Shown here: piece by piece, positions 6,255-24,442 of the stretch
How the letters are laid out: every line of letters begins with the position of its first letter
Numbering within the stretch: position 1 is the stretch's first letter
Assembly (NCBI GenBank): GCA_938016505.1
Contig: CALLWN010000070.1
Span: 1 to 24,442 of the forward strand
Length of the DNA: 24,442 nucleotides
Direction of reading: 5' to 3'
Origin: an uncultured Sphingomonadaceae bacterium
GTDB taxonomy: Bacteria > Pseudomonadota > Alphaproteobacteria > Sphingomonadales > Sphingomonadaceae
Notes under the pieces: model-generated
Databases searched by the model: none
Told to the model about the DNA's origin: nothing
The model's input: the letters and a program-made list of their open reading frames with translations, nothing else
Translations under genes and position numbers: made by a program

Positions 6255-7076
6255 GTGAGGACGAGCCAGTTCGTGCTGTCGGCGGAAGGTGTCGGCTACC
6301 GGGCCGGCGGCCGCTGGCTCGTCCGCGATGTTTCGCTGACGGTAACCCCCGGGGAGTTCGTCGCGGTGATCGGCCCGAACGGGGCCGGCAAGTCGACGTT
6401 CGCGCGGCTGCTGGCCGGCCTGCTGCGGCCAGCCAGCGGCCGGGTCCGCTTCGAGCTCGACGGGCAGGCTGCGGGGCCGCGGGCTGCCCGGCATCTCGCC
6501 TACGTCCCGCAGAGCGTCCCCGAGGCGGCGGGGTTCACGGCCGGCGAGATGGTGCTGATGGGGCGCTATCCGCACCGGGGGGCGCTCGCCCGTGAGACGC
6601 GGGAAGACCGCGAGGCTGCAGCAATGGCGATGGCGTGGATGGGGGTGCTGGAGCTTGCCGGCCGCCGCTTCGCCACGCTCTCGGGGGGCGAGCGGCAGCG
6701 GGTGATGGTGGCGCGGGCGCTGGCGCAGGCGGACAGCCTCGTCATCCTCGACGAGCCGACCGCGTCGCTCGATGTCCGGCACCAGCTGGAGCTGCTGGAG
6801 CGCCTCCGGCTGCTCGCTTCCGCGGGGATGGCGTTCGTCGTCGTGCTGCATGACCTGCAGCTGGCGGGGCGCTGGTGCGACCGGCTGCTGTTGCTGGACC
6901 GCGGGACGGCGGCCGCGTCGGGGGCACCGCGCGAGGTGCTCGACCCGGCTGTGCTGAGCCGGGTGTACGGGCTCGAGGCCCGCGTGAGCTGGGACGAGGG
7001 CGGCGCGTGCCGCGTGGATTTCGGCCTGCGGGAGCGGTTCGCGCCCGCAGCATCACCTGGCGGGGTGCGGAGATGA
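6255..7076 (+). CDS. btuD: corrinoid ABC transporter ATPase, BtuD-like
   Basis: A 273-residue ATP-binding subunit that should power the BtuC/BtuF-like importer. Walker A GPNGAGKST is at residues 40-48, the Q-loop at YVPQ (83-86), the ABC signature LSGGERQ at 142-148, Walker B LVILDEP at 162-168 and the H-loop His at 199 (LHD). All catalytic residues are present. A C-terminal extension after residue 225 resembles the short regulatory tail of FepC/HmuV-type ATPases. Start GTG 6255 has GGGGAGG 4 nt upstream; a longer frame would overlap btuF. Its TGA overlaps the ATG of cobO (ATGA), tying uptake to corrinoid adenosylation in one transcript. Confidence 0.93.
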   Translation: MRTSQFVLSAEGVGYRAGGRWLVRDVSLTVTPGEFVAVIGPNGAGKSTFARLLAGLLRPASGRVRFELDGQAAGPRAARHLAYVPQSVPEAAGFTAGEMVLMGRYPHRGALARETREDREAAAMAMAWMGVLELAGRRFATLSGGERQRVMVARALAQADSLVILDEPTASLDVRHQLELLERLRLLASAGMAFVVVLHDLQLAGRWCDRLLLLDRGTAAASGAPREVLDPAVLSRVYGLEARVSWDEGGACRVDFGLRERFAPAASPGGVRR

Positions 7077-7633
7077 CGGACGGCGAGCATCAGCCGGTGA
7101 AGGGGCCCCGGAAGAAGAAGGGGCTGCTCATCGTGAACACCGGCAACGGGAAGGGGAAGACGACGGCGGCGCTGGGCATGGTGCTGCGCGCCTGGGGCCG
7201 CGGCATGCCGGTCGAGGTCTACCAGTTCATCAAGCCGCCGACGGCAAATTTCGGGGAGCACCGGGCGGCGAAGCGGCTGGGCATCCCCGTGCACCCGCTG
7301 GGCGACGGCTTCACGTGGAAGTCGAAGGACCCGGAGAAAACGAAGGGGCTTGCGCTGGAACAGTGGGAACGGGCGAAGGCGCGGTTGCAGGACCCGGAGC
7401 TGGCGATGCTGGTGCTGGACGAGTTCACCTATCTGCTGCACTACGGCTGGCTGGAAACGGAGGAGGCGGTGACGGCGCTCCAGGGGCGGCGGCCGATGCT
7501 CCACGTAGTCGTCACGGGCCGGTATGCGCCCGACCAGCTCATCGCGGCGGCGGACCTCGTGACCGAGATGACGCTCATCAAACACCCCTACCGCGAACAG
7601 GGGATCAAAGCGCAGCCTGGAGTGGAGTTCTGA
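7073..7633 (+). CDS. cobO: corrinoid adenosyltransferase CobO/BtuR
   Basis: A 186-residue cytoplasmic enzyme that transfers the 5'-deoxyadenosyl group of ATP to Co(I) corrinoids, acting both in de novo synthesis and in salvage. The P-loop NTGNGKGKTTAALG spans residues 22-35, followed by the family motifs RAWGRGMPVEVYQFIK, MLVLDEFTYLLHYGWL and the C-terminal HPYREQGIKAQPGVEF, close to the typical ending of CobO/BtuR/CobA. Length is normal. The ATG overlaps the btuD stop and cobT begins 2 nt after the stop. The basic segment KGPRKKKG before the P-loop is usual for the family. Confidence 0.95.
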   Translation: MTDGEHQPVKGPRKKKGLLIVNTGNGKGKTTAALGMVLRAWGRGMPVEVYQFIKPPTANFGEHRAAKRLGIPVHPLGDGFTWKSKDPEKTKGLALEQWERAKARLQDPELAMLVLDEFTYLLHYGWLETEEAVTALQGRRPMLHVVVTGRYAPDQLIAAADLVTEMTLIKHPYREQGIKAQPGVEF

Positions 7634-11391: not shown

Positions 11392-12869
11392 TGGTCCAGG
11401 GGACAGCCTCGTCGGCGGGCAAGAGCCTGCTGGTGACGGGGCTGTGCCGGCTCTTCGCACGGCGCGGCGTCAACGTGGCGCCATTCAAGGCGCAGAACAT
11501 GTCGAACAACGCGGCCGTGGTGCCGGGCGGGGGCGAAATCGGGCGGGCGCAGTATGTACAGGCGCTCGCTGCCCGGGTGATGCCGCGGGTCGAGATGAAC
11601 CCGGTGCTGCTGAAACCGGAAGGGAATTTGCGGTCGCAGGTAGTGGTGCTGGGGAAGCCGGTGGGGACCCTGCACGCTGCGGCGTACCAGGAAGCGAAGG
11701 CCCGCATCTGGGAGGATGTGACGGCGGCGCTGGACCGGCTCCGGGCGGAGTTCGACCTGGTGATCATCGAAGGGGCCGGGAGCCCGGCGGAGATCAATCT
11801 GAAAGCGCGGGACATTTCGAACATGCGGGTCGCGCGGCACGCGGGCGCGCCCGTGCTGATCGTGGGCGACATCGACCGGGGCGGGGTCTTCGCGCACCTC
11901 TACGGCACGTACCACCTGCTGGAGCCGGAGGAGCAGGCGCTCGTGAAGGGGTTCGTCATCAACAAACTCCGGGGCGATCCGTCGCTGCTGGAGCCGGGGC
12001 TGCGGGATATCGAACGGCTGACCGGGGTGCCGGTCGTGGGGGTCGTGCCGTGGATCCGGGAACCGGGCATCGCTGAGGAAGACTCGGTCGCGCTGGACCG
12101 CCGGCGCGACGATCATGGGCCGTTCCGTGGGGTGGACGTCGCCGTGGTCCGGCTCCCGCGCATCGCAAACTTCGACGATTTCGACCCGCTGGAGCGGGAG
12201 CCCGACGTGCGGGTGCGGTACGTCGAGTATCCCTGGCAGCTGGGGGAACCGGACCTCATCGTCATCCCGGGGACGAAGGCGACGCGGGACGACCTCGGAT
12301 GGCTGCGGGCGAGCGGGATGGCGGAGGCGATCTCGGCGCGGCGTGCGGAAAGGACTCCGGTGGTCGGCATCTGCGGCGGATTCCAGATGCTCGGGCGGAC
12401 GATCGTCGACCCGCTGGGGCTGGAGGGCGCGCCCGGGGCTGCGGAAGGGCTGGGCTGGCTCGATTGCAGGACACGGTTCGCCCCGGGCAAGGTGACACGG
12501 ACGAGCCGGGTGCGGATGGACGGCGGGCCGGGGCTGCTGGAGAGCTGCGGCGGCCTCACCGTCGAGGGGTACGAAATCCACGCGGGGCTGACGGAGATCG
12601 CGAACCCGGCGGCCTGGACCGAAGCGGGCGAGCCCGTGGGGGCAGCGTCGCCGGACGGGATGGTCTTCGGCTGGTACGTGCACGGCGGCTTCGGCAGCAG
12701 GGAATTCCGGGCGCGGCTGCTGGGCAACGTCGCGCGGATGCGGGGCAAGCCGTTCGTGCCGGGGAGCGACGAAGGGCCGGACGCAGCTTTCGAGCGGCTG
12801 GCGGACGTGCTGGAGTCGTCGCTGGATATCGAGCGCATCGCCGGCTGGGCGCTCGGCGGCGGAGCGTAG
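11370..12869 (+). CDS. cobQ: cobyric acid synthase CobQ
   Basis: A 499-residue glutamine-dependent amidotransferase that amidates four carboxylates of adenosylcobyrinic acid a,c-diamide. The N-terminal dethiobiotin-synthetase-like domain has the P-loop GTASSAGKS (11-19), KAQNMSNNA and VIIEGAGSPAEINL. The C-terminal class I glutaminase-like domain has the nucleophile Cys335 in VVGICGGFQML and His438 in GWYVHGGFG. I choose ATG 11370 rather than ATG 11391: the N-terminus then has the usual length before VQGT, and GGAGGT (11358-11363) lies 6 nt upstream. This makes a 22-nt overlap with cobD. The later ATG would share one base with the cobD stop and remains possible. cobU follows after 2 nt. Confidence 0.95.
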   Translation: MARGGVLMVQGTASSAGKSLLVTGLCRLFARRGVNVAPFKAQNMSNNAAVVPGGGEIGRAQYVQALAARVMPRVEMNPVLLKPEGNLRSQVVVLGKPVGTLHAAAYQEAKARIWEDVTAALDRLRAEFDLVIIEGAGSPAEINLKARDISNMRVARHAGAPVLIVGDIDRGGVFAHLYGTYHLLEPEEQALVKGFVINKLRGDPSLLEPGLRDIERLTGVPVVGVVPWIREPGIAEEDSVALDRRRDDHGPFRGVDVAVVRLPRIANFDDFDPLEREPDVRVRYVEYPWQLGEPDLIVIPGTKATRDDLGWLRASGMAEAISARRAERTPVVGICGGFQMLGRTIVDPLGLEGAPGAAEGLGWLDCRTRFAPGKVTRTSRVRMDGGPGLLESCGGLTVEGYEIHAGLTEIANPAAWTEAGEPVGAASPDGMVFGWYVHGGFGSREFRARLLGNVARMRGKPFVPGSDEGPDAAFERLADVLESSLDIERIAGWALGGGA

Positions 12870-12871
12870 CG

Positions 12872-13426
12872 GTGGGACGGCTCGTGCTGGTGACCGGAGG
12901 CGCCCGGAGCGGGAAGAGCCGGTACGCGGAGGAGCGGGCTGCCGGGGCCGGGGCGCCGGTGGTGTACGTCGCCACGATGGAGGCCGCGGACCCGGAGAGC
13001 GCGGCGCGCATCGCCGCGCACCGGCAACGGCGGCCGACGGGCTGGACGACGGTCGAAGAGCCGGTGGACCCCGCCGGGGCGCTGGAGCGGGCGCCGGGGG
13101 AAGCGACGGTGCTGGTGGAGTGTCTCGCGACGTGGTGCGGGAACCTGTTCTTCCGCGCCGGCGCAGATGATGATGCGCCGGGCGACGTGTGGGACCGGCT
13201 CACTGCGCAGGTCCTCGCGGGGGCGGAGGCGCTGACCCGGGCGGCGCGGGGCCGTACGGGGCTCACCATCGTCGTCACGAACGAGGTTGGATGGGGGATC
13301 GTGCCGGCGGGCCGGATGACGCGGGTCTACCGGGATGCGCTGGGTTCGGCGAATCAGGCCGTCGGAGCGGCGGCGGACGAGGTGGTGCTGGTGGTGGCAG
13401 GGCGGGCGGTGCGGCTGCCGGGGTAG
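12872..13426 (+). CDS. cobU: adenosylcobinamide kinase / adenosylcobinamide-phosphate guanylyltransferase CobU
   Basis: A 184-residue bifunctional enzyme (CobP in Pseudomonas) that phosphorylates adenosylcobinamide and then forms adenosylcobinamide-GDP for CobS. The P-loop is GGARSGKS (9-16); the guanylylated His is His50 in AAHRQRRPTGWTTVEEP; further motifs are LVECLATWCGNL and VTNEVGWGIVPAGRMTRVYRD with LGSANQAV. GTG 12872 begins 2 nt after the cobQ stop. It is the last gene of the first riboswitch transcript: its TAG at 13424-13426 is followed within about 8 nt by the promoter of the second leader. Confidence 0.95.
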   Translation: MGRLVLVTGGARSGKSRYAEERAAGAGAPVVYVATMEAADPESAARIAAHRQRRPTGWTTVEEPVDPAGALERAPGEATVLVECLATWCGNLFFRAGADDDAPGDVWDRLTAQVLAGAEALTRAARGRTGLTIVVTNEVGWGIVPAGRMTRVYRDALGSANQAVGAAADEVVLVVAGRAVRLPG

Positions 13427-13433
13427 GCGGCCG

Positions 13434-13463
13434 TTGTTGAGGGCGGCGCCGGCGTGGTAGATT
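13434..13463 (+). promoter_or_regulatory. predicted sigma-70-type promoter of the cobN operon
   Basis: TTGTTG (13434-13439) and TAGATT (13458-13463) are 18 nt apart, and the aptamer starts 8 nt after the -10 element. Spacer length, -10 type and distance to the aptamer match the promoter of leader 1. A -35 alternative TTGAGG (13437-13442) would give a 15-nt spacer. Confidence 0.5.
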
Positions 13464-13471
13464 CCGGTGGT

Positions 13472-13565
13472 CAGCACGGCAGCGCGAACCCGGTGGAAAT
13501 CCGGGGCTGTCCCGCAACTGTGATCCGCCCATGGGGCGGTAAGCCAGGTCGCCGGTGCCGTGCTG
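13472..13565 (+). ncRNA. cobalamin riboswitch 2 (aptamer)
   Basis: A perfect 10-bp closing stem pairs CAGCACGGCA (13472-13481) with TGCCGTGCTG (13556-13565). Inside lie the conserved GAACCCGGTGGAAATCCGG, GGCTGTCCCGCAACTGTGA, a variable hairpin (CCGCCCATGGGGCGG) and the B12 box AAGCCAGGTCGCC. It sits in the leader of the cobaltochelatase/cobalt-uptake operon, whose expression should fall when cobalamin is abundant. The closing stem differs in sequence from riboswitch 1 while the core is shared, supporting two functional aptamers. Confidence 0.94.
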
Positions 13566-13623
13566 GTGTCTAGCCCGCGGGGATACGGGTGAGGGACACG
13601 TGGCTCCAGCCGGTCGCCATGTG
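13566..13623 (+). promoter_or_regulatory. two overlapping, mutually exclusive hairpins after riboswitch 2
   Basis: Hairpin A: GTGTC (13566-13570) with GACAC (13595-13599), inner CCCG/CGGG (13574-13577 with 13586-13589), loop CGGGGATA. Hairpin B: CACGTGGC (13597-13604) with GCCATGTG (13616-13623), one G-U pair. The bases 13597-13599 are shared, so only one can form. Leader 1 has the same pair of helices although the sequence enclosed by hairpin B differs. Loop A can pair with UCCCG in the aptamer core. Pairing seen by eye; function inferred. Confidence 0.55.
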
Positions 13624-13631
13624 CCAAATCG

Positions 13632-13660
13632 ACGCCCCTCCTCGCGAGGGGCGTTGTCGT
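13632..13660 (+). terminator. terminator-like hairpin of leader 2
   Basis: Stem ACGCCCCTC (13632-13640) / GAGGGGCGT (13646-13654) with a 5-nt loop CTCGC, followed by TGTCGT. The GCCCCTC/GAGGGGC core is the same as in leader 1. The downstream U content is poor, so termination strength is uncertain. Confidence 0.55.
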
Positions 13661-13681
13661 CGGCACGGCAGCGCAGCCGCG

Positions 13682-13706
13682 GGCGGAGGCAGCGCCTGCC
13701 TTCGCC
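13682..13706 (+). promoter_or_regulatory. leader hairpin between terminator 2 and cobN-1
   Basis: GGCGGAGGCA (13682-13691) pairs over 10 bp (one G-U) with TGCCTTCGCC (13697-13706) around a GCGCC loop. Leader 1 also has a large hairpin in this position, with unrelated sequence. Role unknown. Apart from the short ORF at 13771, nothing else is recognisable between it and cobN-1. Confidence 0.4.
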
Positions 13707-13770
13707 CTGCCGAACCGGAGAGCGGGGTGTGCCACCTTCCGCGGGCGGGCGAAGGAGGAGGCACGCAGCG

Positions 13771-13815
13771 ATGCAGGGACCCGGGGCCGCACGGCCGGGG
13801 AGCAGCCGAAGATGA
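13771..13815 (+). CDS. possible 14-residue leader peptide overlapping the cobN-1 start
   Basis: ATG 13771 is preceded by an unusually strong ribosome-binding site GAAGGAGGAGG (13751-13761, 9 nt away). It opens a 14-codon frame (MQGPGAARPGSSRR) whose TGA (13813-13815) overlaps the ATG (13812-13814) of cobN-1 as ATGA. cobN-1 has its own moderate site GGGGAG (13797-13802, 9 nt). This looks like a translational-coupling leader ORF, but the peptide resembles nothing known and the arrangement could be chance in GC-rich DNA. Confidence 0.35.
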   Translation: MQGPGAARPGSSRR

Positions 13816-16800
13816 CCGGGCGCGCTCCGCGGAGCATCGTCATCGTGACGGCGTACGACGCGGACGCGGCGGCGGTTGCGGCGGCAAAGACGGCGCTCCC
13901 GCAGGACTTTCCGCCGGTGCTGGTGTTCGGCCCCGGGGAGGCTGCCGCACAGCCGGAGCGCGTGCTGGCGGCGGCCCGGCAGGCGGGGGTGGTGGTCGTC
14001 CGGCTGCTCGCCGGGCCGGAATCGATCGGCGGGGTGTTCGCGCCGCTGGTCGCCGCGTGCCGGGCTGCCCGGGCGGCGCTCATCGTCCGGCGGGCCTACC
14101 CGATGGCGAGAGAGCGTCTCGCGGAGTATTCGACCGTCGACGCAGCGGAAGCCGAGCTGGCGCTCGCGTACTTCCTCCATGGCGGACCCGGGAACGCGGA
14201 GCAGGCGCTGCGCTTTCTCGCCGACCGGCACCTCGGCGGCGCGTTCGGGTGGCGGCCGCCGGAGCCGATGCCGTGGGAAGGCTTCTACGTGCCGGGGCAG
14301 CCGCTGACGGCGGGCAGGCCGGCGCTGAAGCTGGCGCCGTGGTGGCGGGATGGGCGGCCGGCGGTTGGGGTGCTGTTCTACCGCAACCTCGTTCAGATGG
14401 GCGAAACGGCGCTGGTCGAAGCGCTGGCGGAGGCGCTCGGCCGGCACCGCTGCAATGCCGTCCCGGTCTACGCGTACGGGCTGCGGGAGGATTCGAACGG
14501 CCGGGACAATGCGGGGGCCGTGCGGGCGCTGCTCAGCGGCGACGACGGCCGCCCGCTGGTGCAGGCGGTGATTTCGCTGATGCCGTTTTCGGCGTCCGTC
14601 CCGGGGCGGGAAGGGCGGGCCGAAGCCACCCCGGGCGTGGCGGCGCTCGGCGTCCCGGTCATCCAGGGGGCGATGAGCCAGGGGCAGCTGGCCGCGTGGC
14701 GGGAGAGCGCCACGGGGCTGAGCCCGCTCGATGTCGCGCTGTCGGCGGCGCTGCCGGAGCTGGACGGGCGGCTGATTTCGGCGCCGGCGGGCTTTCGCGA
14801 GCCGGCGGAGGAGAGCGGACTGGTCCGCATCGCCTGGGAGCCGGACCGGCTCGACCGGCTGGCAGGGCTCGCGGCGCGGTGGGCCCGGCTCGCGACGGTG
14901 CCGAACGAGGAGAAGCGGGTCGCCATCCTCCTGAACAACCCGAACGGGCGCGAGTCGCGCATCGCTGCCGCGTTCGGCCTGGACGCGCTGGCCTCGGCGG
15001 TGCGGCTGCTGCGCGCCCTGGCCGCTGCGGGGTTCGCTGTCCGCGACATCCCGGATGGGGGCGACGCGCTGGCCGACCTCCTCCTGCGGACGTGCCCGAA
15101 CGACCCGGCGGCGGCGACGGCGGAGCAGCTGGCGACGGCCCCGGCGCGGGTATCTGCGGAACGGTACCTGAAGTGGTTCGCCGGGCTGCCGGGGCGGGTG
15201 CAGGAGGCGGTCACCGACCACTGGGGGCCTGCGCCGGGCCGGGTGTTCGTCGACGGCGGGGAGATCGTGGTGCCCGGCGTGGTGCTGGGCAATGTGTTCG
15301 TGGGGCCGCAGCCGCAGCGGGGCTTCGGACTCACCCGGGAGGCGATCCTGCACGCGCCGGACCTCCCGCCTTCGCACCAGTACCTTGCGGCGTACCTCTG
15401 GCTGCGGGAGGTGTTCGGGGCGGACGCCGTGGTGCAGGTGGGCAAGCACGGCAACCTGGAGTGGCTGCCAGGCAAGGGAACGGGGCTTTCGAGCGCGTGC
15501 TTCCCGGACGTCGCGCTGGCGGACGTGCCGCTCGTCTACCCGTTCATCATGAACAACCCGGGCGAGGGGACGCAGGCGAAGCGGCGGGCGGCCGCGGCGG
15601 TCGTCGACCACCTCGTCCCGCCGATGGCGGAAGCCGGGAGTTATCGCGAGCTGGCAGAAACGCGCGCAGCGCTCGAGGCGCTGCGGGACGCGCTCGAGAA
15701 CTGCGCCGAGCCCGGGAGGGTAGCCGCGCTGGCGGAGCGGGCGGCCGATGCGGTCCGGCGTGCGCGGCTCGAGCGGGACTTCGGGCTGGAGCCGGGGGCG
15801 GCGTGGGAGCCGGCCCGGCTGGCGCGCGATGGACTGCATTACCTCGAGGAGCTGGCGAACGGGCTCATCCCGGCGGGCCTGCATGTGCTCGGGGAAACGC
15901 CCCCAGGGGATGCGCTGGCGGACCTGCTGCTGGCGATCGACCGCGGCCACGGCGAGCGGTCGCTGGGCGCTGCCGTCGCGCGGCGGCTCGGCTGCGGATG
16001 GGATGGCGGCGGGCTGCCGGACCACGCGGCAGCCATCACGCGGGACGTCGTGGAGGCAGCGGTGCGGCAGGGACCTGCGGCGGCGCGGCGCGCGCTCGCG
16101 GCCCGCCTCGGCGGGGACGACCCGGAGGCGGCGCTTGCCCTCGATGAGCTGGCGGTGCGCGTGCTGGCGGCCATCCGGCGGGTGCCGGACGAAGTCGAGC
16201 ACGTGGTGCGGGCGCTCGAGGGGCGGGCGGTCCCGCCGGGGCCGGCGGGGGCGCCGACCCGGGGGCAGTCGGATGCGCTGCCGACGGGGCGGAACTTCTA
16301 CGGTCTGGACCCGCGGGCGCTGCCGAGCCGGCAGGCGTGGGAGACCGGGAAAGCCGTCGCGGAGGCGGTCATCGCGCGGCACCTCGAGGAGGAGGGCGCC
16401 TATCCCGAGTCCGTCGCCATCATCGCGTGGGGCACGGCGAACATTCGGACCCGCGGCGAGGACGTCGCGCAGGCGCTCCATTTCCTCGGCTTCGAGCCAG
16501 TGTGGGACGAGCGGTCGGGACGGGTAACGGGGGTTCGCGCGGTGCCGCTGGACCGGCTGGGACGGCCGCGGGTCGACGTGGTGGTGCGGGCGAGCGGGTT
16601 CTTCCGGGACAGCTTCGCGGCAGCGATCGGGCTGGTCGACGAGGCGGTTTGCCGCGCGGCTGCGCTGGACGAGCCGCCGGAGCACAACTTCGTCCGCAAG
16701 CACGTGCTGGCGGATGTGCAGGCCGGGGTCAGCATGGAGGAAGCGCTGGCGCGGGTGTTCGCGCCGCGGCCCGGCGCCTACGTCGACGGGGTCGCGCAGG

Positions 16801-17501
16801 CTGTCGAGGCGGGCTGCTGGGAGACGAGGCGGGACCTGGCGGAGATCTATGCGCGGTGGGTCGATCACGCTTACACGCGGGACCGGTACGGCGTGCCGGC
16901 GCGGGACGCGCTCATTCGGCGGGCGGCGGAGCTGAGCGTGGTGCTGAAGACGCGGGACAACGAGGAACATGACGTCTTCGACACCGACGACTACTTCCAG
17001 GATTTCGGGGGGATGGTCGCGCTGGCGCAGGAGCTCGGGGGCGGGCGGGCGAAGGCGTGGGTCGGCGACAGCACTCGGCCGTGGCAGCCGGGGGTGCGCA
17101 GCGCCGAGGAGGAGGCGCGGCGGACGTTCCGGCGGCGCGTCGTGAACCCGAAATGGCTCGAAGCGATGGAGCGGCACGGATACCAGGGAGGTTCGGAGAT
17201 GCTCAAGACGGTGGACTATGCGTTTGGGTTCGATGCCACGGCGAACGTGCTGGAGGACTGGATGTACGAGCGGCTGGCGCAGGAGTACGTTTTCGACGCT
17301 GCCCGGCGGGAGTTCCTCGAGCGGCACAATCCGTGGGCGCTGCGGGACATGGCGGCCCGCCTGCTGGAGGCGGCGCGCCGGGGGATGTGGGAAGCGCCGC
17401 CTGGCGACGCGGTCGCGCGGCTGGAGGCGGTCCTGCTGGAGGCGGAGGGCGCGATCGAAGACCGCGGTGCGGCTGTGCCAGCCGAGGGGGCGGCGCGGTG
17501 A
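13812..17501 (+). CDS. cobN: cobaltochelatase large subunit CobN (copy 1)
   Basis: A 1229-residue H-type chelatase subunit that binds the corrin ring (hydrogenobyrinic acid a,c-diamide) and inserts cobalt with an ATPase partner. Conserved blocks in order: VGVLFYRNLVQMGETALVEAL, GLSPLDVALSAALPELDGR, LLNNPNGRESRIAAAFGLD, VVQVGKHGNLEWLPGKG (VGKHGNLE at 543-550), YPFIMNNPGEGTQAKRR, LPTGRNFYGLDPRALPSR, IAWGTANIRTRGEDVAQAL, RPRVDVVVRASGFFRDSF, DNEEHDVFDTDDYFQDF and VVNPKWLEAMERHGYQGG. Length is normal for CobN. Mg-chelatase BchH/ChlH is the main alternative; the B12 riboswitch, cob neighbours and cbtAB argue for cobalt. First gene after leader 2; its TGA overlaps the GTG of the ATPase gene. Confidence 0.93.
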   Translation: MTGRAPRSIVIVTAYDADAAAVAAAKTALPQDFPPVLVFGPGEAAAQPERVLAAARQAGVVVVRLLAGPESIGGVFAPLVAACRAARAALIVRRAYPMARERLAEYSTVDAAEAELALAYFLHGGPGNAEQALRFLADRHLGGAFGWRPPEPMPWEGFYVPGQPLTAGRPALKLAPWWRDGRPAVGVLFYRNLVQMGETALVEALAEALGRHRCNAVPVYAYGLREDSNGRDNAGAVRALLSGDDGRPLVQAVISLMPFSASVPGREGRAEATPGVAALGVPVIQGAMSQGQLAAWRESATGLSPLDVALSAALPELDGRLISAPAGFREPAEESGLVRIAWEPDRLDRLAGLAARWARLATVPNEEKRVAILLNNPNGRESRIAAAFGLDALASAVRLLRALAAAGFAVRDIPDGGDALADLLLRTCPNDPAAATAEQLATAPARVSAERYLKWFAGLPGRVQEAVTDHWGPAPGRVFVDGGEIVVPGVVLGNVFVGPQPQRGFGLTREAILHAPDLPPSHQYLAAYLWLREVFGADAVVQVGKHGNLEWLPGKGTGLSSACFPDVALADVPLVYPFIMNNPGEGTQAKRRAAAAVVDHLVPPMAEAGSYRELAETRAALEALRDALENCAEPGRVAALAERAADAVRRARLERDFGLEPGAAWEPARLARDGLHYLEELANGLIPAGLHVLGETPPGDALADLLLAIDRGHGERSLGAAVARRLGCGWDGGGLPDHAAAITRDVVEAAVRQGPAAARRALAARLGGDDPEAALALDELAVRVLAAIRRVPDEVEHVVRALEGRAVPPGPAGAPTRGQSDALPTGRNFYGLDPRALPSRQAWETGKAVAEAVIARHLEEEGAYPESVAIIAWGTANIRTRGEDVAQALHFLGFEPVWDERSGRVTGVRAVPLDRLGRPRVDVVVRASGFFRDSFAAAIGLVDEAVCRAAALDEPPEHNFVRKHVLADVQAGVSMEEALARVFAPRPGAYVDGVAQAVEAGCWETRRDLAEIYARWVDHAYTRDRYGVPARDALIRRAAELSVVLKTRDNEEHDVFDTDDYFQDFGGMVALAQELGGGRAKAWVGDSTRPWQPGVRSAEEEARRTFRRRVVNPKWLEAMERHGYQGGSEMLKTVDYAFGFDATANVLEDWMYERLAQEYVFDAARREFLERHNPWALRDMAARLLEAARRGMWEAPPGDAVARLEAVLLEAEGAIEDRGAAVPAEGAAR

Positions 17502-19492
17502 GCGGCCCGGTCTTCCCGTTCACGGCCATCGTGGGGCAGGACGAGGTGAAGCTCGGGCTGCTGCTCACGGTCATCGACCCGGGCATCGGCGGCATCCTCA
17601 TCCGCGGGGGAAAGGGGACGGGGAAGTCGACCGCAGTGCGCGCGCTGGCCGCGCTCTTGCCGCCAGTCGAAGCGACGGACGGATGTCCGTTTGCCTGCGC
17701 CCCCGCGGAGCAGGCGGAGTGCCCGGGCGAGCACACGGCCGGCGCTGGCGCCGTTTCGCGGCCGCCGAGGCTGGTCACGCTCCCGGTGGGCGCCTCGGAG
17801 GAGCGGCTCATCGGGTCGCTCGACATCGAGGCGGCGCTGAGCCGGGGCGAGCGGAAGGTCGAACCAGGGCTGCTCGCGGCGGCGCACCAGGGGATTCTTT
17901 ATGTCGATGAAGTGAATCTGCTGGCAGACCACCTCGTGGATGCGCTGCTGGATGCGGCGGCGATGGGCCGGAACTACATCGAACGGGACGGCGTGTCGGT
18001 GAGCCACCCGGCGCGGTTCGTGCTCGTGGGGACGATGAATCCTGAGGAAGGCGAGCTGCGGCCGCAGCTGCTGGACCGGTTCGGGCTGATGGCCGAGGCG
18101 GAGAGTGCGCTGGCCCCGCCAGAGCGGGCAGAGGTGGTGCGGCGCCGGATCGCCTTCGAGCTGGACCCGGCCGGCTTCGCGGCCCGCTGGCAGCAGGCGG
18201 AGGATGAGCTCGCGCACCGATTGCGCGGGGCCCGGGCCGGGCTGGCGCGGGTCGAGGTGCCGGAGGCGGTTCTCGAGGCGATTACGGGGATTTGCGCGGC
18301 GTGCGAAGCGGACGGCCTCCGGGCCGACCTCGCGCTGTACCGCGCAGCGCGGGCGCACGCCGCCTGGGCAGGGCGCGGCCGGGTGACGCTCGATGACGTG
18401 CGGGCAACGGCGCCGCTCGTGCTGGCGCACCGCCGCCGGCGGCTGCCGTTCGAGCAGCCCGGCCTCGACCGGGATCAGCTCGAACGGGCACTGCGGGAAT
18501 TCGAGCAGGGCGACGACCCGGGCGACGAGCGCGGCGGGGAGCCCGGCGGCGAGCCCGCTGACCTGCCGCCGGGGCCTGGCGGGGCGCCTCGCGAATCGAA
18601 TGGCGCGGGGGGATCCGCGAGTGACCGGCGGCAGCCGGACCGGGGGCCGGGCGGGGCCGGGGAGCGGCCTGCAGGGGTCGGTGAGGCCCTTGCGCTGCGG
18701 CCGCCGCCTCTGCCGCGGAGACAGCTGCAGGCGCAGCGGACGGCCGGGCGGCGGCGGCGCGGCGCGGAGGGTATGCGCGGCCGCCACGCTGGAGCGAAGG
18801 GGTTCGAAGCAGGGCGCGATATCGACGCCGCGGCGACGATCCGGGCGGCGGCGCTGGAGGGCTGCCCGCGGCTGCCGGTGGCGCGCCGCCACTGGCGCGC
18901 AAAACGTCGTCGCGCGGAGGCGCCGGCGCTCATCCTGCTGATCGTCGACGCCAGCGGCTCGATTGGCGCCCGGAAGCGGATGGAAGCCGCGAAGGGAGCG
19001 GTGTTCGGGCTCCTGCAAGACGCCTACCTCCGGCGGGACCGGGTGGCCTTCGTGGCGTTCGATGGGCGCGGCGCGCGGCTGCTGCTGGCGCCGACGCGGA
19101 GCGTGGACCACGCCCAGCGGGCCCTGGCGGAGTTCGGGACGGGCGGCCGGACGCCGCTCTGGGCAGGGCTGGAGGAGGCTGCCCGGCTCGTCGTCCGGGT
19201 CCGGCGGAAGGAGCCGGAGCTGCCGGTGCTGGCCGTCGTGGTGACGGACGGCCGCGCGAACGCGGGGACCGGCGGGCTGGACCCGGTGGCTGCAGCGATG
19301 ACGCGGGCGGCCGCGCTTCGGGAACTGGGGGTAGACGGCATGGTGCTGGATACGGAGCAGGGGGCGGTCAGGCTGGGGGTCGCTCGGCGCCTGGCCGGGG
19401 CGCTGGGCGGGAGCCACGTCGCCCTCGACGACCTGGAGCCGGCGGCGATCTGGTCTGCAGTCCGGGCGCGGCGCGCCGAGGCGGCCGGATGA
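17498..19492 (+). CDS. chelatase AAA+ ATPase/VWA subunit (ChlI-ChlD fusion type, CobN partner)
   Basis: A 664-residue subunit that should supply ATP-driven remodelling for CobN, doing in one chain what CobS and CobT do in proteobacteria. The AAA+ part has Walker A GGKGTGKST (37-45), Walker B ILYVDEVN (133-140), sensor-1 GTMNPEEG (178-185) and LLDRFGL. A flexible Gly/Pro/Asp/Glu-rich, then Arg-rich linker (about 347-450) leads to a C-terminal von Willebrand A domain with MIDAS motif DASGS (484-488), GTGGRTPLW and VVVTDGRAN. Cys63, Cys67 and Cys75 form the Cys cluster often seen in this subfamily. GTG 17498 overlaps the cobN-1 stop, and the TGA overlaps the cobN-2 ATG. With no other I/D-type genes here, it probably serves both CobN proteins. 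Confidence 0.92.
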   Translation: MSGPVFPFTAIVGQDEVKLGLLLTVIDPGIGGILIRGGKGTGKSTAVRALAALLPPVEATDGCPFACAPAEQAECPGEHTAGAGAVSRPPRLVTLPVGASEERLIGSLDIEAALSRGERKVEPGLLAAAHQGILYVDEVNLLADHLVDALLDAAAMGRNYIERDGVSVSHPARFVLVGTMNPEEGELRPQLLDRFGLMAEAESALAPPERAEVVRRRIAFELDPAGFAARWQQAEDELAHRLRGARAGLARVEVPEAVLEAITGICAACEADGLRADLALYRAARAHAAWAGRGRVTLDDVRATAPLVLAHRRRRLPFEQPGLDRDQLERALREFEQGDDPGDERGGEPGGEPADLPPGPGGAPRESNGAGGSASDRRQPDRGPGGAGERPAGVGEALALRPPPLPRRQLQAQRTAGRRRRGAEGMRGRHAGAKGFEAGRDIDAAATIRAAALEGCPRLPVARRHWRAKRRRAEAPALILLIVDASGSIGARKRMEAAKGAVFGLLQDAYLRRDRVAFVAFDGRGARLLLAPTRSVDHAQRALAEFGTGGRTPLWAGLEEAARLVVRVRRKEPELPVLAVVVTDGRANAGTGGLDPVAAAMTRAAALRELGVDGMVLDTEQGAVRLGVARRLAGALGGSHVALDDLEPAAIWSAVRARRAEAAG

Positions 19493-22400
19493 GCGGGGCC
19501 GAGGCCTGCGCGGGCGGCTGCGGGAGCGCGGGCTGCGGGGAGGCGGCTGTGCCGCGCCGCCGCGGCCAGCGGAATATCGTGACCCGGGCCGACGGGCGGC
19601 TGGTGAACGTCAACCGGCAGCTGGGGCAGCTGTTCGTGTGCGCCCACGGGTGCTGCTGCGGCCGCGAATCGGAGGGGAAGCCGCCGGGGTTCTTCGATCG
19701 GTATCACGCGGAATGGGAGCGGCGGAAGCTGCGCAACAAGGTGCACCTGAACATGGGCGGCTGCCTCGGGCCGTGCCCGCTGGCGAACGTGTGCATGCTG
19801 CTGTTCGACGGCGTGACGGTGTTCTTCCACTCGATGAACTCGGAGCGGCTGGTGACGGCGCTGTTCGACTACATCGAGTCGCTGGTGGCGGCGGGACGGT
19901 ATCTGCCGCCGGAGGGCGAGCTGGGTGCGCTGGCGTTTTCGGCGATGGCGAACGATGGCCGTGGCCGGGCAGCCGAAGCGCGGGAGGGCACGGCGGACGG
20001 CGGCGCGGCGGAAGAGCAGCGGGGCATCCTCGTGCTTTCGCACTCCGACACGGACGTGCTGTGCTTCGCGGCCGCGGCGCGGGAACTGGGTGATCGCTTC
20101 GTGCCGGTCACGGTCCGGAACATCTCGGGGCTGCGGGACGCAGAGGACGCGGCGGCGCTGTTCGAGCAGCTGGTCCCGCGGGCGGCGGTCACGGTGGCAA
20201 TCGTGCACGGGGGGCGAAGGTCGGTGCCGGCCATGGAGCGGCTGGCGGAGCTGAGCGAGGAGCACGGGGGCTGGCTCGTCGCGGTCCCGGGGACGGAGGA
20301 GCTGGACGAGGGGCTGATCGGGCTTTCGACGGCGGGCGCGGGGATGGCGCTGGCGGTGCGCGCCTACCTGCAGGAGGGCGGCATCGAGAACTCTCGCGAA
20401 TGCCTGAAGATGCTCGGCGACCACCTGCTGAGTCTCGGGGTAGGGTACCGCGACCCGGTTCCGCAGCCGCGGACGGGCTTCTACCACCCGCGGTTCGCGA
20501 ACCGGGAGGCATGGCTCGCGGCGCGAACACCCGGGGCGCCGGCAATCGGGCTGCTGTTCTACCGGTCGTTCTTCCTCTCGGGGGACACCGCCTTCGTGGA
20601 TGCGCTCGTGGAGGCGGGCGAGGCGCTCGGGGCCGACGTGCTCCCGGTGTTCGGCTATTCGCTGAAAGACGACCCGGACCCATCGGGCAGGACGGCGGTG
20701 CTCCGGGCGCTGTGCGGAGACGACGGCCGGCCGCTGGTCGACGCCGTCGTGAATACGATGTCTTTTGCCCTGGGGAGCGCGGGGAGGGAGCCGGGCGAGG
20801 GGGATTGGCAGGTGGCGGTGCTCGAGGAGCTCGGGCTGCCGCAGGTCCAGGGTATCGCCATTTCGACGTCGGTAGCGCAGTGGGAGCAGTCGGCCACCGG
20901 TGCGGGGCCGCTCGATGTGGCGATGTCGGTCGCGATCCCGGAGCTCGACGGCCGGGTCATCGGGGTGCCGGCATCGTTCAAGGAGCGGGACGGGGCGGGG
21001 ACGGTGCGGCGGATTCTGCCCGCGGACCGCGCAGCGCGGCTGATGGGGCTGGCTGCCCGGCTGGCGATGCTGCGCCGGAAGCCGAATGCGGAGAAGCGCG
21101 TCGCGATCATCCTGACGAACCACCATGCGAAGGCATCGCGGATTGCGAACGCGGTGGGGCTGGACTCTCCGGAGAGCGTGGTGCGGCTGCTGCGCCGGCT
21201 GGCGGAAGCGGGGTACACGGTGGGGCCGATCCCGGCGGACGGCGAGGCGCTGATGCGGGAGCTGACGGCGCGCGGCCACTACGAAGAGGAGACGCTGACG
21301 GAGGCGATGCTGGATGGGGCGGCGGCACGGGTGCCGGCGGAGCGGTACCGCGAGTGGTTCGGGGAGCTGCCAGCGCACCGGCAGGCCGAGATGGCCACGC
21401 GGTGGGGCGCGCCGCCGGGGAGGCATTACCTCGACGCGCGAGGCAACCTCGTCGTGGCCGGGCTGGTGCTGGGGAACGTCTTCGTGGCGGTGCAGCCCCC
21501 GCGCGGCTACTCGATGGACCGGACGGCGATCATGCATCAGCCGGACCTGCCGCCTCCTCACCCCTATTTCGCGCTCTACCGGTGGCTGCGGGAGCCTGCG
21601 GAGCGCGGCGGTTTCGGCGCCGACGCCATCATCCAGGTGGGGAAGCACGGGTCGGCCGAGTGGCTGCCCGGGAAGGGCGTCGGCCTGGGCTCGGACTGCT
21701 ACCCGGACCTGTTCGTGGGCGACCTGCCGGTGGTGTACCCGTTCATCATCGACGGGCCGGGCGAGGGAGCGGCGGCCAAGCGGCGCACGCACGCTGTGAT
21801 CGTCGACCACCTGCCGCCGCCAATCACGAACGCAGAGCTGTACGGCGAACTGGCGGAGCTGGACCGGCTCGTGGACGAGTACTACCTGCTCGAACGGACG
21901 GACCCTGGGCGGCTGCCCTACCTGCAGCGCCAGATTTGGGACGTCATCCGGCAGGCGGGGCTGGCCGATGAGCTGGACCGGCTGCTGCAGGACGGCGGCG
22001 ACGGGCATGTGCACGAGTGGGACCCGCGGGAGCACGAGGACGGGGTGCCGTACGCGCTTTCGGACCTGAGCGGGGAGGGGTTCGCGCACCTGGTCGAAGC
22101 GATTCACACGTACACGCACGAGCTGGGGGCGGCGCCGATCCGGGCGGGCCTCCATGTGCTGGGCGAACTCCCGCGAGGCGACGAGCTGGTCGACTTCACG
22201 GCCGCGATGCTCCGCGTGCCGAATGGCGACGTTCCGCCCCTGGCGGAGGCGGTGGCGGCCTGGTGCGGTATCCCGGGGGACGTACTGGCGCTGCCGGCGG
22301 GGCAGCGCCTGGAAGGCGCCACCGGCGGACTGCCGGGGGACGTTCCCCGGACGGCGGGCGAGCTGCAGGAGCGGCTGGGCGAGCTGGGACGGGGGGCGCT

Positions 22401-23844
22401 GCGGGCCGTGGTCCTCGAGGCAAGGGCGCCGGCGGAGGCCGCGGCGGAGGCGGGGCCGTGTCGCGGCGAACGAGAGCCGCTCGTCGCGGTGCTCGGCTTC
22501 GTGCGGGAGCGGCTGCTGCCGGCGCTGGAACGGACGGATGATGAGCTGGGGCACGTGCTCGATGCGCTCGGGGGGCGCTACGTTCCGCCGGGGCCAGCCG
22601 GGGCGCTGACGCGGGGGATGGCGCACGCGCTGCCGACGGGGCGGAACTTCTACGCGGTGGACCCGCGGGGCATCCCGAGCCGGGTGGCCTGGGAGGTTGG
22701 GCAGGAACTGGCGGCGGCGACGGTGGACCGCTACCGGCGGGAGAGCGGGGAGCTGCCCCGTTCGATTGGGATTTCGATGTGGGGCACGACGGCGATGCGC
22801 AACGGCGGCGAGGACGTTGCGCTGGTGTTGGCGCTCATCGGAGTCGAACCGACGTGGCAGCGGGAGAGCCGGCGAGTCACGGGGTTTCGGGTGCGTTCGA
22901 TCGAGGAGCTGGGACGGCCGCGCGTGGACGTCGTATGCCGGGTTTCGGGCTTCTTCCGGGACGCGTTCCCCGGGGTCATCGAGTTAATGGGCGAGGCGTT
23001 CGATGCGGTAGCGAACCTGGATGAGCCGCTGGAGGTGAACCCTGTCCGAGCGCACCGGCTGGCGCGGGCGGCGGCGCTCCGGGATTCGGGCCTGAGCGAG
23101 GCGGAGGCGTGGCAGCGGGCCGGGGTGCGGGTGTTCGGGAGCGCGCCGGGGGTGTACGGGGCGGGCGTGCTGCAGCTGCTGGATGAGGCGGCGTGGGAGG
23201 ACTCGGCGGAGATTGCGGAGACGTTCATGGCGTGGGGCGGGCACGCGTATGCGCCGGGGATGTACGGGGTGCCGCTCGGCGACGAGCTGCGGGACCGGCT
23301 TCGGCTGGTCGACGCAGCGGTGCAGAACCAGGACAACCGGGAGCACGACATCCTCGATGCGGACGACTATTTCCAGTTCCAGGGCGGGATGGCGGCAGCG
23401 GTCCGGCTGCTGCGCGGGCGCGGGCCGCGGCTGTACTTCGGGGACAGTTCGGACCCGAGGCGGCCGAGGGTTCGCCAGACGGAGGATGAGCTGGACCGCG
23501 TGATGCGGTCGCGGGTGCTGAATCCGAAGTGGATTGCGGCGATGCAGGAGCACGGCTACCGGGCCGGGACGGAGTTCGCGGCGACGGTGGACTACCTGTT
23601 CGGCTGGGCAGCCACGGCCGGCATCGTGAAGGACTGGCAGTTCGAGCGGGCGGCGGAGCGGTACGTGCTCGATGCGGAGATGCAGCGGTTTCTCGGGCGG
23701 CACAACCCGTGGGCGCTGCGGGATATGGCGCGCCGGCTCATGGAGGCGGTTCGCCGCGGGCTGTGGCGGGCGCCGGAGGGGATGGAGGCGCGCCTCGAGG
23801 CGGCGCTGCTGGAAGCGGAGGGGGCTATCGAAGACCGGATGTGA
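19489..23844 (+). CDS. cobN: CobN-family chelatase large subunit (copy 2) with N-terminal [2Fe-2S] ferredoxin-like domain
   Basis: A 1451-residue fusion. Residues 1-20 are a small Cys-rich tail (Cys7, 11, 16). About residues 27-145 resemble a thioredoxin-like [2Fe-2S] ferredoxin (CbiW/COG3411 type): FVCAHGCCCGRE (Cys51, 55, 56, 57), then GGCLGPCPLANVC (Cys92, 96, 102). A Gly/Ala/Glu linker leads to a complete CobN from about 175: GLLFYRSFFLSGDTAFVDAL, GPLDVAMSVAIPELDGR, IIQVGKHGSAEWLPGKG (VGKHGSAE at 717-724), YPFIIDGPGEG, LPTGRNFYAVDPRGIPSR, RPRVDVVCRVSGFFRDAF, DNREHDILDADDYFQFQGGM, VLNPKWIAAMQEHGY. Where copy 1 has GNLE, this has GSAE. ATG 19489 overlaps the ATPase stop. It could be a second cobalt chelatase, a redox-coupled variant, or act on another metal; context favours cobalt. 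Confidence 0.9.
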   Translation: MSGAEACAGGCGSAGCGEAAVPRRRGQRNIVTRADGRLVNVNRQLGQLFVCAHGCCCGRESEGKPPGFFDRYHAEWERRKLRNKVHLNMGGCLGPCPLANVCMLLFDGVTVFFHSMNSERLVTALFDYIESLVAAGRYLPPEGELGALAFSAMANDGRGRAAEAREGTADGGAAEEQRGILVLSHSDTDVLCFAAAARELGDRFVPVTVRNISGLRDAEDAAALFEQLVPRAAVTVAIVHGGRRSVPAMERLAELSEEHGGWLVAVPGTEELDEGLIGLSTAGAGMALAVRAYLQEGGIENSRECLKMLGDHLLSLGVGYRDPVPQPRTGFYHPRFANREAWLAARTPGAPAIGLLFYRSFFLSGDTAFVDALVEAGEALGADVLPVFGYSLKDDPDPSGRTAVLRALCGDDGRPLVDAVVNTMSFALGSAGREPGEGDWQVAVLEELGLPQVQGIAISTSVAQWEQSATGAGPLDVAMSVAIPELDGRVIGVPASFKERDGAGTVRRILPADRAARLMGLAARLAMLRRKPNAEKRVAIILTNHHAKASRIANAVGLDSPESVVRLLRRLAEAGYTVGPIPADGEALMRELTARGHYEEETLTEAMLDGAAARVPAERYREWFGELPAHRQAEMATRWGAPPGRHYLDARGNLVVAGLVLGNVFVAVQPPRGYSMDRTAIMHQPDLPPPHPYFALYRWLREPAERGGFGADAIIQVGKHGSAEWLPGKGVGLGSDCYPDLFVGDLPVVYPFIIDGPGEGAAAKRRTHAVIVDHLPPPITNAELYGELAELDRLVDEYYLLERTDPGRLPYLQRQIWDVIRQAGLADELDRLLQDGGDGHVHEWDPREHEDGVPYALSDLSGEGFAHLVEAIHTYTHELGAAPIRAGLHVLGELPRGDELVDFTAAMLRVPNGDVPPLAEAVAAWCGIPGDVLALPAGQRLEGATGGLPGDVPRTAGELQERLGELGRGALRAVVLEARAPAEAAAEAGPCRGEREPLVAVLGFVRERLLPALERTDDELGHVLDALGGRYVPPGPAGALTRGMAHALPTGRNFYAVDPRGIPSRVAWEVGQELAAATVDRYRRESGELPRSIGISMWGTTAMRNGGEDVALVLALIGVEPTWQRESRRVTGFRVRSIEELGRPRVDVVCRVSGFFRDAFPGVIELMGEAFDAVANLDEPLEVNPVRAHRLARAAALRDSGLSEAEAWQRAGVRVFGSAPGVYGAGVLQLLDEAAWEDSAEIAETFMAWGGHAYAPGMYGVPLGDELRDRLRLVDAAVQNQDNREHDILDADDYFQFQGGMAAAVRLLRGRGPRLYFGDSSDPRRPRVRQTEDELDRVMRSRVLNPKWIAAMQEHGYRAGTEFAATVDYLFGWAATAGIVKDWQFERAAERYVLDAEMQRFLGRHNPWALRDMARRLMEAVRRGLWRAPEGMEARLEAALLEAEGAIEDRM

Positions 23845-23901
23845 TCGCGGCGCGGCGCGCCGCGGGCGCAGGAATCACGACGTAATGAAAGGAGCTATGG
23901 A

Positions 23902-24120
23902 ATGTCGGTTTCATCTTCGGCTGCTGCAGGGAGGGCGCAGGGCCGCGCGGCCAGGCTGCCGGGCCGCAGCGTCGTGGCCGCAGGGGCGGCGCTGGCGCTG
24001 GCCGGGGTGCTGCTGTACCTGGCGGGATTCGAGCAGGGGGCCGTAGCGCTGTTCGACGGGACGACGGTGCACGAGTTCGTGCACGATGCGCGGCACGCGC
24101 TGGGATTCCCATGTCACTGA
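23902..24120 (+). CDS. cbtB: cobalt transporter subunit CbtB
   Basis: A 72-residue protein with one predicted membrane helix (about residues 23-43) and the C-terminal signature VHEFVHDARHALGFPCH, giving His57, His61, His65, Cys71 and His72 as likely metal ligands, which is diagnostic of CbtB. It works with CbtA in cobalt uptake and is typically B12-regulated. ATG 23902 has AAAGGAG 7 nt upstream. The 57-nt gap after cobN-2 is the largest inside this operon and holds a perfect 14-bp palindrome CGCGGCGCGCCGCG (23851-23864) but no riboswitch, so expression probably depends on leader 2. The last 10 nt overlap the cbtA start. Confidence 0.92.
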   Translation: MSVSSSAAAGRAQGRAARLPGRSVVAAGAALALAGVLLYLAGFEQGAVALFDGTTVHEFVHDARHALGFPCH

Positions 24121-24442
24121 CCCAGGCACGGCGGCAGGGATTCGACGGGGAAGCGCGCGCAGCGCGCCGGGACATGGGCGGCGACACGCTCGACGTCCTC
24201 CTGCGGGGGTTGCTGGCGGGAGTTGCGGCGGGGATCGTGGCGGCGCTGGTCGCGTGGTGGGCGGTGGAGCCGAGCCTCGAGGAGGCGATCGCGCTGGAGG
24301 ACGCGGCCGCGGAGGAGGCGCCGGGCCACAGCCACGCGGAGCCGCCGGTTTCGCGCGGCGTGCAGCGCACGGCGGGCCTCGCGGCGGGGACGGTCGCTGT
24401 GGCGGTTGCAGGCGGGTTGCTGGCGGCGCTGGCGGGCCTGGG
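24111..24442 (+). CDS. cbtA: cobalt transporter subunit CbtA (C-terminus cut by window edge)
   Basis: The N-terminal 110 codons of the multi-spanning CbtA permease. LLRGLLAGVAAGIVAALVAWW (about residues 30-50) is the first membrane helix, followed by EPSLEEAIALEDA, a short His-containing loop (His73, His75) and the family motif PPVSRGVQRTAGLAAG before the second helix. ATG 24111 overlaps cbtB by 10 nt (ATGTCACTGA). ATG 24174 is an alternative that removes 21 hydrophilic residues and is nearer to the usual CbtA N-terminus. The remaining helices lie beyond the window. Confidence 0.88.
   Translation, partial: MSLTQARRQGFDGEARAARRDMGGDTLDVLLRGLLAGVAAGIVAALVAWWAVEPSLEEAIALEDAAAEEAPGHSHAEPPVSRGVQRTAGLAAGTVAVAVAGGLLAALAGL

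Follow-up and report, generated by a model that had tools for sequence, protein, structure and literature searches.

A six-cysteine thioredoxin-like ferredoxin domain fused to a CobN cobaltochelatase: a possible metal-handling module with in-frame TGA variants

The stretch of DNA analysed here, called the window, comprises 24,442 nucleotides from an uncultured Sphingomonadaceae bacterium (assembly GCA_938016505.1, contig CALLWN010000070.1, positions 1 to 24,442 of the forward strand). It contains two genes for CobN, the large subunit of cobaltochelatase. In the second of these, CobN2, the CobN part is preceded by about 175 additional residues that include a six-cysteine, ferredoxin-like domain (Table 1). 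The PF02514 match of CobN2 is full length (residues 292-1430, model positions 2-1087 of 1090) and the protein exceeds the TIGR02257 cut-off (1097 against 822 bits), making it a cobaltochelatase-type CobN. An earlier note on this DNA had claimed that a thioredoxin-type [2Fe-2S] ferredoxin is fused directly to CobN2. In an alignment of 121 rows (the window protein and the best 120 of 312 database protein matches), 116 have a domain length of 123 residues, and the linker from F150 to L183 varies between 24 and 54 residues, with a median of 32.

The CobN2 domain is predicted to adopt the thioredoxin-like ferredoxin fold, in agreement with the claim. This is the fold family of the thioredoxin-like [2Fe-2S] ferredoxins (Azotobacter FeSI, 5abr; Aquifex, 1m2a) and of NuoE/HydB-type domains. 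CobN2 scored 21.9 bits with the curated ferredoxin model NF041613, below the cut-off of 195, and no Pfam ferredoxin family matched the protein at E up to 1. From its sequence, the domain was filed as a distant thioredoxin-like ferredoxin branch outside the NF041613 family. The fold label is not new: "(2Fe-2S) ferredoxin domain-containing protein" is the name that some stand-alone copies already bear at NCBI.

Cysteines 51, 55, 56, 57, 92 and 96 are invariant in all 121 rows, and the suspicion that the cysteines might not be conserved failed. The seventh residue of the proposed pattern, Cys102, varies among the same rows; it falls outside the motif and was ruled out as a ligand. When 310 unique rows were counted (12 rows shorter than 100 amino acids were left out), 307 matched C-x(2-6)-CCCG together with C[LMI]GxC, and 308 kept all six cysteines, the 308th being P0224 with CVGPC. 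P0198 and P0199 have GGCCG in place of GCCCG, one potential cause being a TGA codon rendered as glycine by the gene caller. The conservation is partly forced, as the genome scan used the pattern CLGPC[PAS]LAN and the protein searches need common five-residue words; the CCC triple is absent from the scan pattern. The canonical [2Fe-2S] ligand positions are occupied by Cys51, one of Cys55-57, Cys92 and Cys96, and two invariant cysteines exceed the four that such a cluster needs. Unlike the known thioredoxin-like [2Fe-2S] ferredoxins, the CCC branch has a first Cys-Cys loop of only 2-6 residues followed by the conserved triple, and it is joined to metal-handling proteins. A divergent branch of the domain (L126, L128-L131) has the spacing C-x2-CCCG.

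The best 80 of 115 relatives from the genome scan were treated as loci. At 60 of these 80, the domain and at least part of CobN lie in a single open reading frame (ORF), and all 120 proteins listed among the 312 database proteins with the domain carry PF02514. The other 20 loci, without a CobN-fusion call, include L083, with overlapping frames, and L051, which is cut by the end of its contig; these two, at least, are probably CobN fusions as well. In both L010 and L083 the domain and CobN lie in different, overlapping frames. In Tepidiforma flava (L014, NZ_CP115149) both CobN genes are split into several ORFs while the window copies are intact; the breaks represent either sequencing error or decay.

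CobN phylogeny places the fusions together. The FastTree tree contained 90 rows (47 fused and 43 other; CobN matches spanning fewer than 1000 residues were left out), and all 47 fused rows fell inside a single starred group of 49. The other two members are L010 and L083, labelled as having no domain but carrying it in an overlapping frame. The direct fusion claimed for CobN2 was thus borne out by the single-ORF fusions and by this group. Its nearest sisters are nine domain-less CobNs from eight genomes sampled in the phylum of Ktedonobacter, with the caveat that the rooting is unsure (the BchH outgroup does not form one side of a branch and three rows are very long-branched). The window's other CobN, CobN1, sits in a distant branch found only in Tepidiforma. 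The fused group spans Chloroflexota, Acidobacteriota, Planctomycetota, one Verrucomicrobiota metagenome-assembled genome (MAG), and two records titled Proteobacteria/Rhodanobacteraceae. The simplest account of these sequences would be that the fusion arose once and then spread by descent and transfer.

Among 299 genomes of the source assembly's phylum group (taken as Pseudomonadota), 92 have a CobN/BchH-family match, but a strong domain match was found in the source assembly only, the others being at 1e-6 or weaker. Four of 20 weak matches outside the source assembly were inspected, and these were ordinary ferredoxins with a long first loop and no triple. None of the 20 best-scoring CobN loci of this group carries the domain, which agrees with the earlier statement that ordinary CobN has none. 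In a sample of 251 genomes from Ktedonobacter's phylum, 40 have a domain match at E <= 1e-3 (36 of these below 1e-20), and CobN/BchH-family matches occur in 44.

These distributions also touch on the origin of the window. Positions 11474-24442 are 97.7% identical to T. flava; the source assembly's phylum group differs from that of Ktedonobacter and has no strong domain matches outside the source assembly; and another contig of the assembly (C312, L008) has a PF02514 gene beside bchL-bchM-puhA-like genes, recognised by eye. Taken together, these observations make it probable that the window contig was wrongly binned into the MAG of a phototrophic proteobacterium.

Within the window, a single ChlI/D gene is flanked by the two CobN genes. 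The CobN2 ATG overlaps the stop of the ChlI/ChlD-type gene, whose GTG start in turn overlaps the CobN1 stop, and the three genes therefore look translationally coupled. Between the CobO gene and these three lie further putative B12 genes, picked out by eye from the ORF list.

Table 1. Features of the CobN2 locus and in-frame TGA codons in related loci (positions without a locus prefix are those of the window).
Feature	Position	Strand	Remarks
CobN2, cobaltochelatase large subunit with N-terminal ferredoxin-fold domain	19489..23844	+	1451 aa translation; PF02514, TIGR02257
Six-cysteine thioredoxin-like ferredoxin domain (predicted), residues ~27-150 of CobN2	19567..19938	+	
Cys51 codon	19639..19641	+	Cys in 121/121 rows
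Cys55-Cys56-Cys57 codons, CCC triple	19651..19659	+	TGA in some relatives
Cys92-Leu-Gly-Pro-Cys96 motif	19762..19776	+	both Cys in 121/121 rows
Variable Ala/Gly/Pro/Glu/Ser-rich tether, domain to CobN	19939..20019	+	F150-L183 length taken over 121 rows
CobN/Mg-chelatase catalytic region	20362..23778	+	PF02514
ChlI/ChlD-type AAA+/VWA partner subunit	17498..19492	+	PF01078, PF17863, PF13519; stop overlaps CobN2 start
CobN1, second CobN, without the domain	13812..17501	+	PF02514; far from CobN2 in CobN tree
CobO gene	7064-7633		
In-frame TGA	L045:8100-8102		
In-frame TGA	L058:235-237		
In-frame TGA	L127:6093-6095	-	
In-frame TGA	L132:6166-6168	-	

The domain also occurs away from CobN. At five of the 20 loci without a CobN-fusion call (L029, L033, L034, L055, L067) its gene directly follows nitrile hydratase alpha, with gaps of fewer than 60 bases between the matches, in the order beta-alpha-[domain protein]. 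All five adjoining alpha subunits, and four further full alphas found, contain VCTLCSC, the motif of cobalt-type nitrile hydratase (PMC2770081). The three proteins scanned (L029, L034, L067) consist of the domain followed by an NHase_beta_N part; L033 resembles them by eye and L055 stops at the contig end. Four database proteins have the reverse order, NHase_beta_N coming first. The gene order given in PMC3511329 for another such system is beta-alpha-activator, and its activator, P14K, is called a metallochaperone there. The beta-alpha order and the NHase_beta_N part together place the domain gene in the activator slot of the operon.

A cobW-like gene lies in the flank of seven of the 20 loci without a CobN-fusion call (L047, L059, L062, L063, L064, L066, L072), and Pfam confirmed CobW neighbours for L059, L066 and L136 (which overlaps L062). 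At L059 the cobW-like gene is accompanied by an ABC-3 permease; COG0523 genes and an ABC-3 permease gene are all that links the domain to zinc. One copy (L070) has a TonB plug protein and a Peripla_BP_2/FecCD/ABC-ATPase uptake set as neighbours, and the surroundings of another (L084) include an ABC ATPase and a P-type ATPase. In a more distant branch (L119-L123) the proteins have a C-terminal YHS domain (by Pfam for L120 and L121, by eye in the three others), and at four of six YHS-branch loci (L119-L122) the neighbour, on the same strand and within 450 bases, is a copper-type P-type ATPase that bears CPC and GMTCxxC motifs. In the domain tree (141 columns, 102 rows; L014 and L134-L137 omitted) 25 of 97 inner branches were starred. 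The YHS branch was grouped (97, starred), and the remaining context labels switched several times. There are also ties to CobO: one database protein, P0130, has the domain fused to a CobO domain, and at L036 (3300-4097) a ferredoxin domain of ordinary type, which unlike the CCC branch has no triple, forms the N-terminus of a CobO upstream of a CCC-type gene. As a separate observation, Herpetosiphon aurantiacus (L133) has a second domain copy, near an ABC-3 permease gene, that is split in two by an integrase-core (rve) gene.

In some relatives a codon of the cysteine triple is replaced by TGA. This was found in four of 102 unique copies (125 domain matches with each identical stretch counted once). 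Two are paralogues in genome G409, where the genome search found two copies (L127, L132) that each have a single TGA, as the second codon of the triple (TGC TGA TGC GGC). The others are CobN fusions of a Thermomicrobiales MAG (L045) and an Anaerolineae MAG (L058) with TGA at the first triple codon, beyond which the frame stays open for 840 and 929 codons, respectively. In 100 domain matches (L009-L088, L119-L138) no in-frame stop codon other than these four occurs; all are TGA and all lie inside the triple, a result that chance nonsense mutation would not produce. The selenocysteine tRNA of G409 scored 74.3 bits against a cut-off of 47, with the anticodon tca according to ARAGORN. In 18 genomes searched, 14 scored above 60 bits, and T. 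flava reached 47.3 against the cut-off of 47. Other long ORFs on the G409 contigs end in TGA, with the caveat that some of the long ORFs are spurious. Hairpins 3' of the G409 TGAs had z values of -2.28 and -2.67, with 3 of 200 shuffles as good. Judging from the sequences, selenocysteine is likely in the G409 copies and plausible in the L045 and L058 fusions, which would then be possible selenoprotein cobaltochelatases. A 2026 review of selenoproteomes lists, among proteins with selenocysteine forms, one related to CobW and a (2Fe-2S) member of the CopZ family, and the terms CobN and nitrile hydratase are absent from its main text (PMC13188914).

The reading favoured here, held tentatively and at just under even confidence, is that the CobN2 domain is a metal-handling module that supplies or conditions Co(II) for insertion. 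The six-cysteine branch would serve as such a module for several metal systems. In CobN2 the flexible linker would tether it to the chelatase, so that the local supply of Co(II) is raised or its right state kept. Cys51, one of Cys55-57, Cys92 and Cys96 may hold a [2Fe-2S] cluster, and the other one or two thiols of the triple may bind or reduce the client metal; metal handling and electron transfer may both hold. Here we infer metal binding, the cluster, the direction of transfer and the insertion of selenocysteine. A wider version is possible but less probable: a GTPase-free metal-delivery family in which CCC ferredoxins serve CobN, cobalt nitrile hydratase, copper-ATPase/YHS and COG0523/zinc systems, with the extra thiols beside the Fe-S cluster binding metal and selenocysteine used in some species.

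The proposed comparison is with CobW. For CobNST, Co(II) transfer is unfavourable without CobW, which is needed at ordinary cobalt levels (PMC10206600). The cobW gene usually adjoins cobN, and COG0523 proteins have been linked to cobN, iron-type nitrile hydratase and zinc (PMC2770081). The tethered domain might do for CobN2 what the free GTPase CobW does for CobN elsewhere. CobW/COG0523 and the CCC domain are linked to clients of the same sort (cobN, nitrile hydratase and zinc systems) and each has a conserved thiol cluster, CxCC and CCC, respectively. The likeness is of the works-like kind only: the CobN2 domain has a different fold and no GTPase (PF02492 was not among the Pfam matches of CobN2 at E up to 1), it is tethered where CobW is free, and the nitrile hydratases found beside copies of the CCC domain are of the cobalt type where that of COG0523 is of the iron type. 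With one hidden Markov model throughout, cobW was found in the flank of 19 of the 20 best-scoring CobN loci of the source assembly's phylum group (presumed Pseudomonadota), but in none of the 60 loci of ferredoxin-CobN fusions (Fd-CobN), including 0 of 32 loci longer than 16 kb. In 25 genomes chosen from the 60 fused loci, CobW_C was not found in 17, among them T. flava (titled a complete genome), with a caveat that many of these are MAGs.

Several observations weigh against the metal-handling reading. CobW_C proteins are present in the other eight of the 25 Fd-CobN genomes. In 14 control loci of domain-less Chloroflexota CobNs (13 genomes, picked from the 44 with a CobN/BchH-family match) cobW was likewise absent from every flank, although some contigs are short, and CobW_C was not found in seven of the 13 genomes; these seven are among the eight that carry the sister CobNs. 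As domain-less sisters also lack cobW, its loss is not tied to the gain of the domain. The strict claim that the domain replaces CobW was dropped on the same ground. Fd-CobN and its sister lineages manage without adjacent CobW, whether the domain is present or not. Some contexts have no metal link: the L130 copy lies beside ilvB/ilvN (Pfam), which L126, L128, L129 and L131 resemble by ORF sizes, L137 lies beside hemA/hemC, and L049 beside Na/Ca exchanger and NMT1 genes. Two neighbour genes of L081 scanned for families gave no match. On the selenocysteine side, the hairpins of L045 (z +0.36, 119 of 200 shuffles as good) and L058 (z -0.90, 37 of 200) do not stand out, and 98 copies with cysteine fold equally stably at the same place (mean -13.2, sd 3.7 kcal/mol). 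The evidence for a selenocysteine insertion sequence is thus weak, and with cysteine controls folding as well the hairpins cannot serve as proof of selenocysteine. Further downstream, the CobN of L045 lies in two frames.

The strongest competing explanation, though a less likely one, is that suggested by the earlier note: a [2Fe-2S] domain that passes electrons to the Co(II) corrin product, bringing it towards Co(I) for CobO, or that holds cobalt in a reduced state while it is inserted. The domain has the fold of electron-carrying ferredoxins with the canonical ligand positions kept, and P0130 and the ordinary-type ferredoxin-CobO adjoining a CCC-type copy at L036 tie such domains to CobO. The uptake set and TonB plug protein beside L070 also favour it, and selenocysteine, if inserted, is common in redox proteins. 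However, the nitrile hydratase, CPC-ATPase/YHS and CobW contexts have no corrinoid, and a B12-specific redox role leaves both these contexts and the two extra invariant cysteines unexplained. A metal-handling role, maybe redox-coupled, fits more of the facts. It is improbable that the domain is a structural or redox-sensing Fe-S unit dispensable for catalysis, even though several chelatases are described as holding Fe-S centres not required for activity (PMC7689651) and sister CobNs without the domain exist: the six cysteines are conserved across several phyla, the domain is reused in unrelated metal proteins, and a codon of the triple has been swapped for TGA with the frame kept open. An artefact, whether a frameshift that merged two adjacent genes or cysteines that match the pattern by chance, has next to no probability despite the overlapping frames of L010 and L083 and the fragmented T. 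flava copy, as one-frame fusions occur in many species (60 of 80 loci, at least 120 of 312 database proteins with PF02514) and form the starred tree group; the frameshift was rejected.

Other Fe-S proteins offer partial parallels. CbiW is a small thioredoxin-like ferredoxin near B12 genes, and the N-terminal [2Fe-2S]/Zn domain of Archaeoglobus CopZ has a Cu(II)-reducing activity. The latter is an Fe-S domain on a metal chaperone (title cited in PMC7558416). The selenocysteine forms listed for CopZ-family relatives (cd10141) recall the TGA variants of the CCC domain, a likeness drawn from description (PMC13188914). A literature search by titles and abstract openings, with most subscription journals outside it, found nothing on the domain, a ferredoxin-CobN fusion or a CobN selenoprotein. 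As far as was searched, the CCC branch, its sharing among cobalt, copper and zinc systems, and the TGA variants are new.

CobN-type chelatases acquire Co(II) against an unfavourable gradient, a problem for which CobW uses GTP hydrolysis (PMC10206600). A chelatase with a built-in supply or redox module would make the Co(II) step testable in one polypeptide, and the TGA variants indicate which residues to mutate first. The CCC domain connects B12 synthesis with nitrile hydratase maturation and with copper and zinc handling. If the wider reading is true, the GTPase-free metal-delivery family would include selenoprotein cobaltochelatases.

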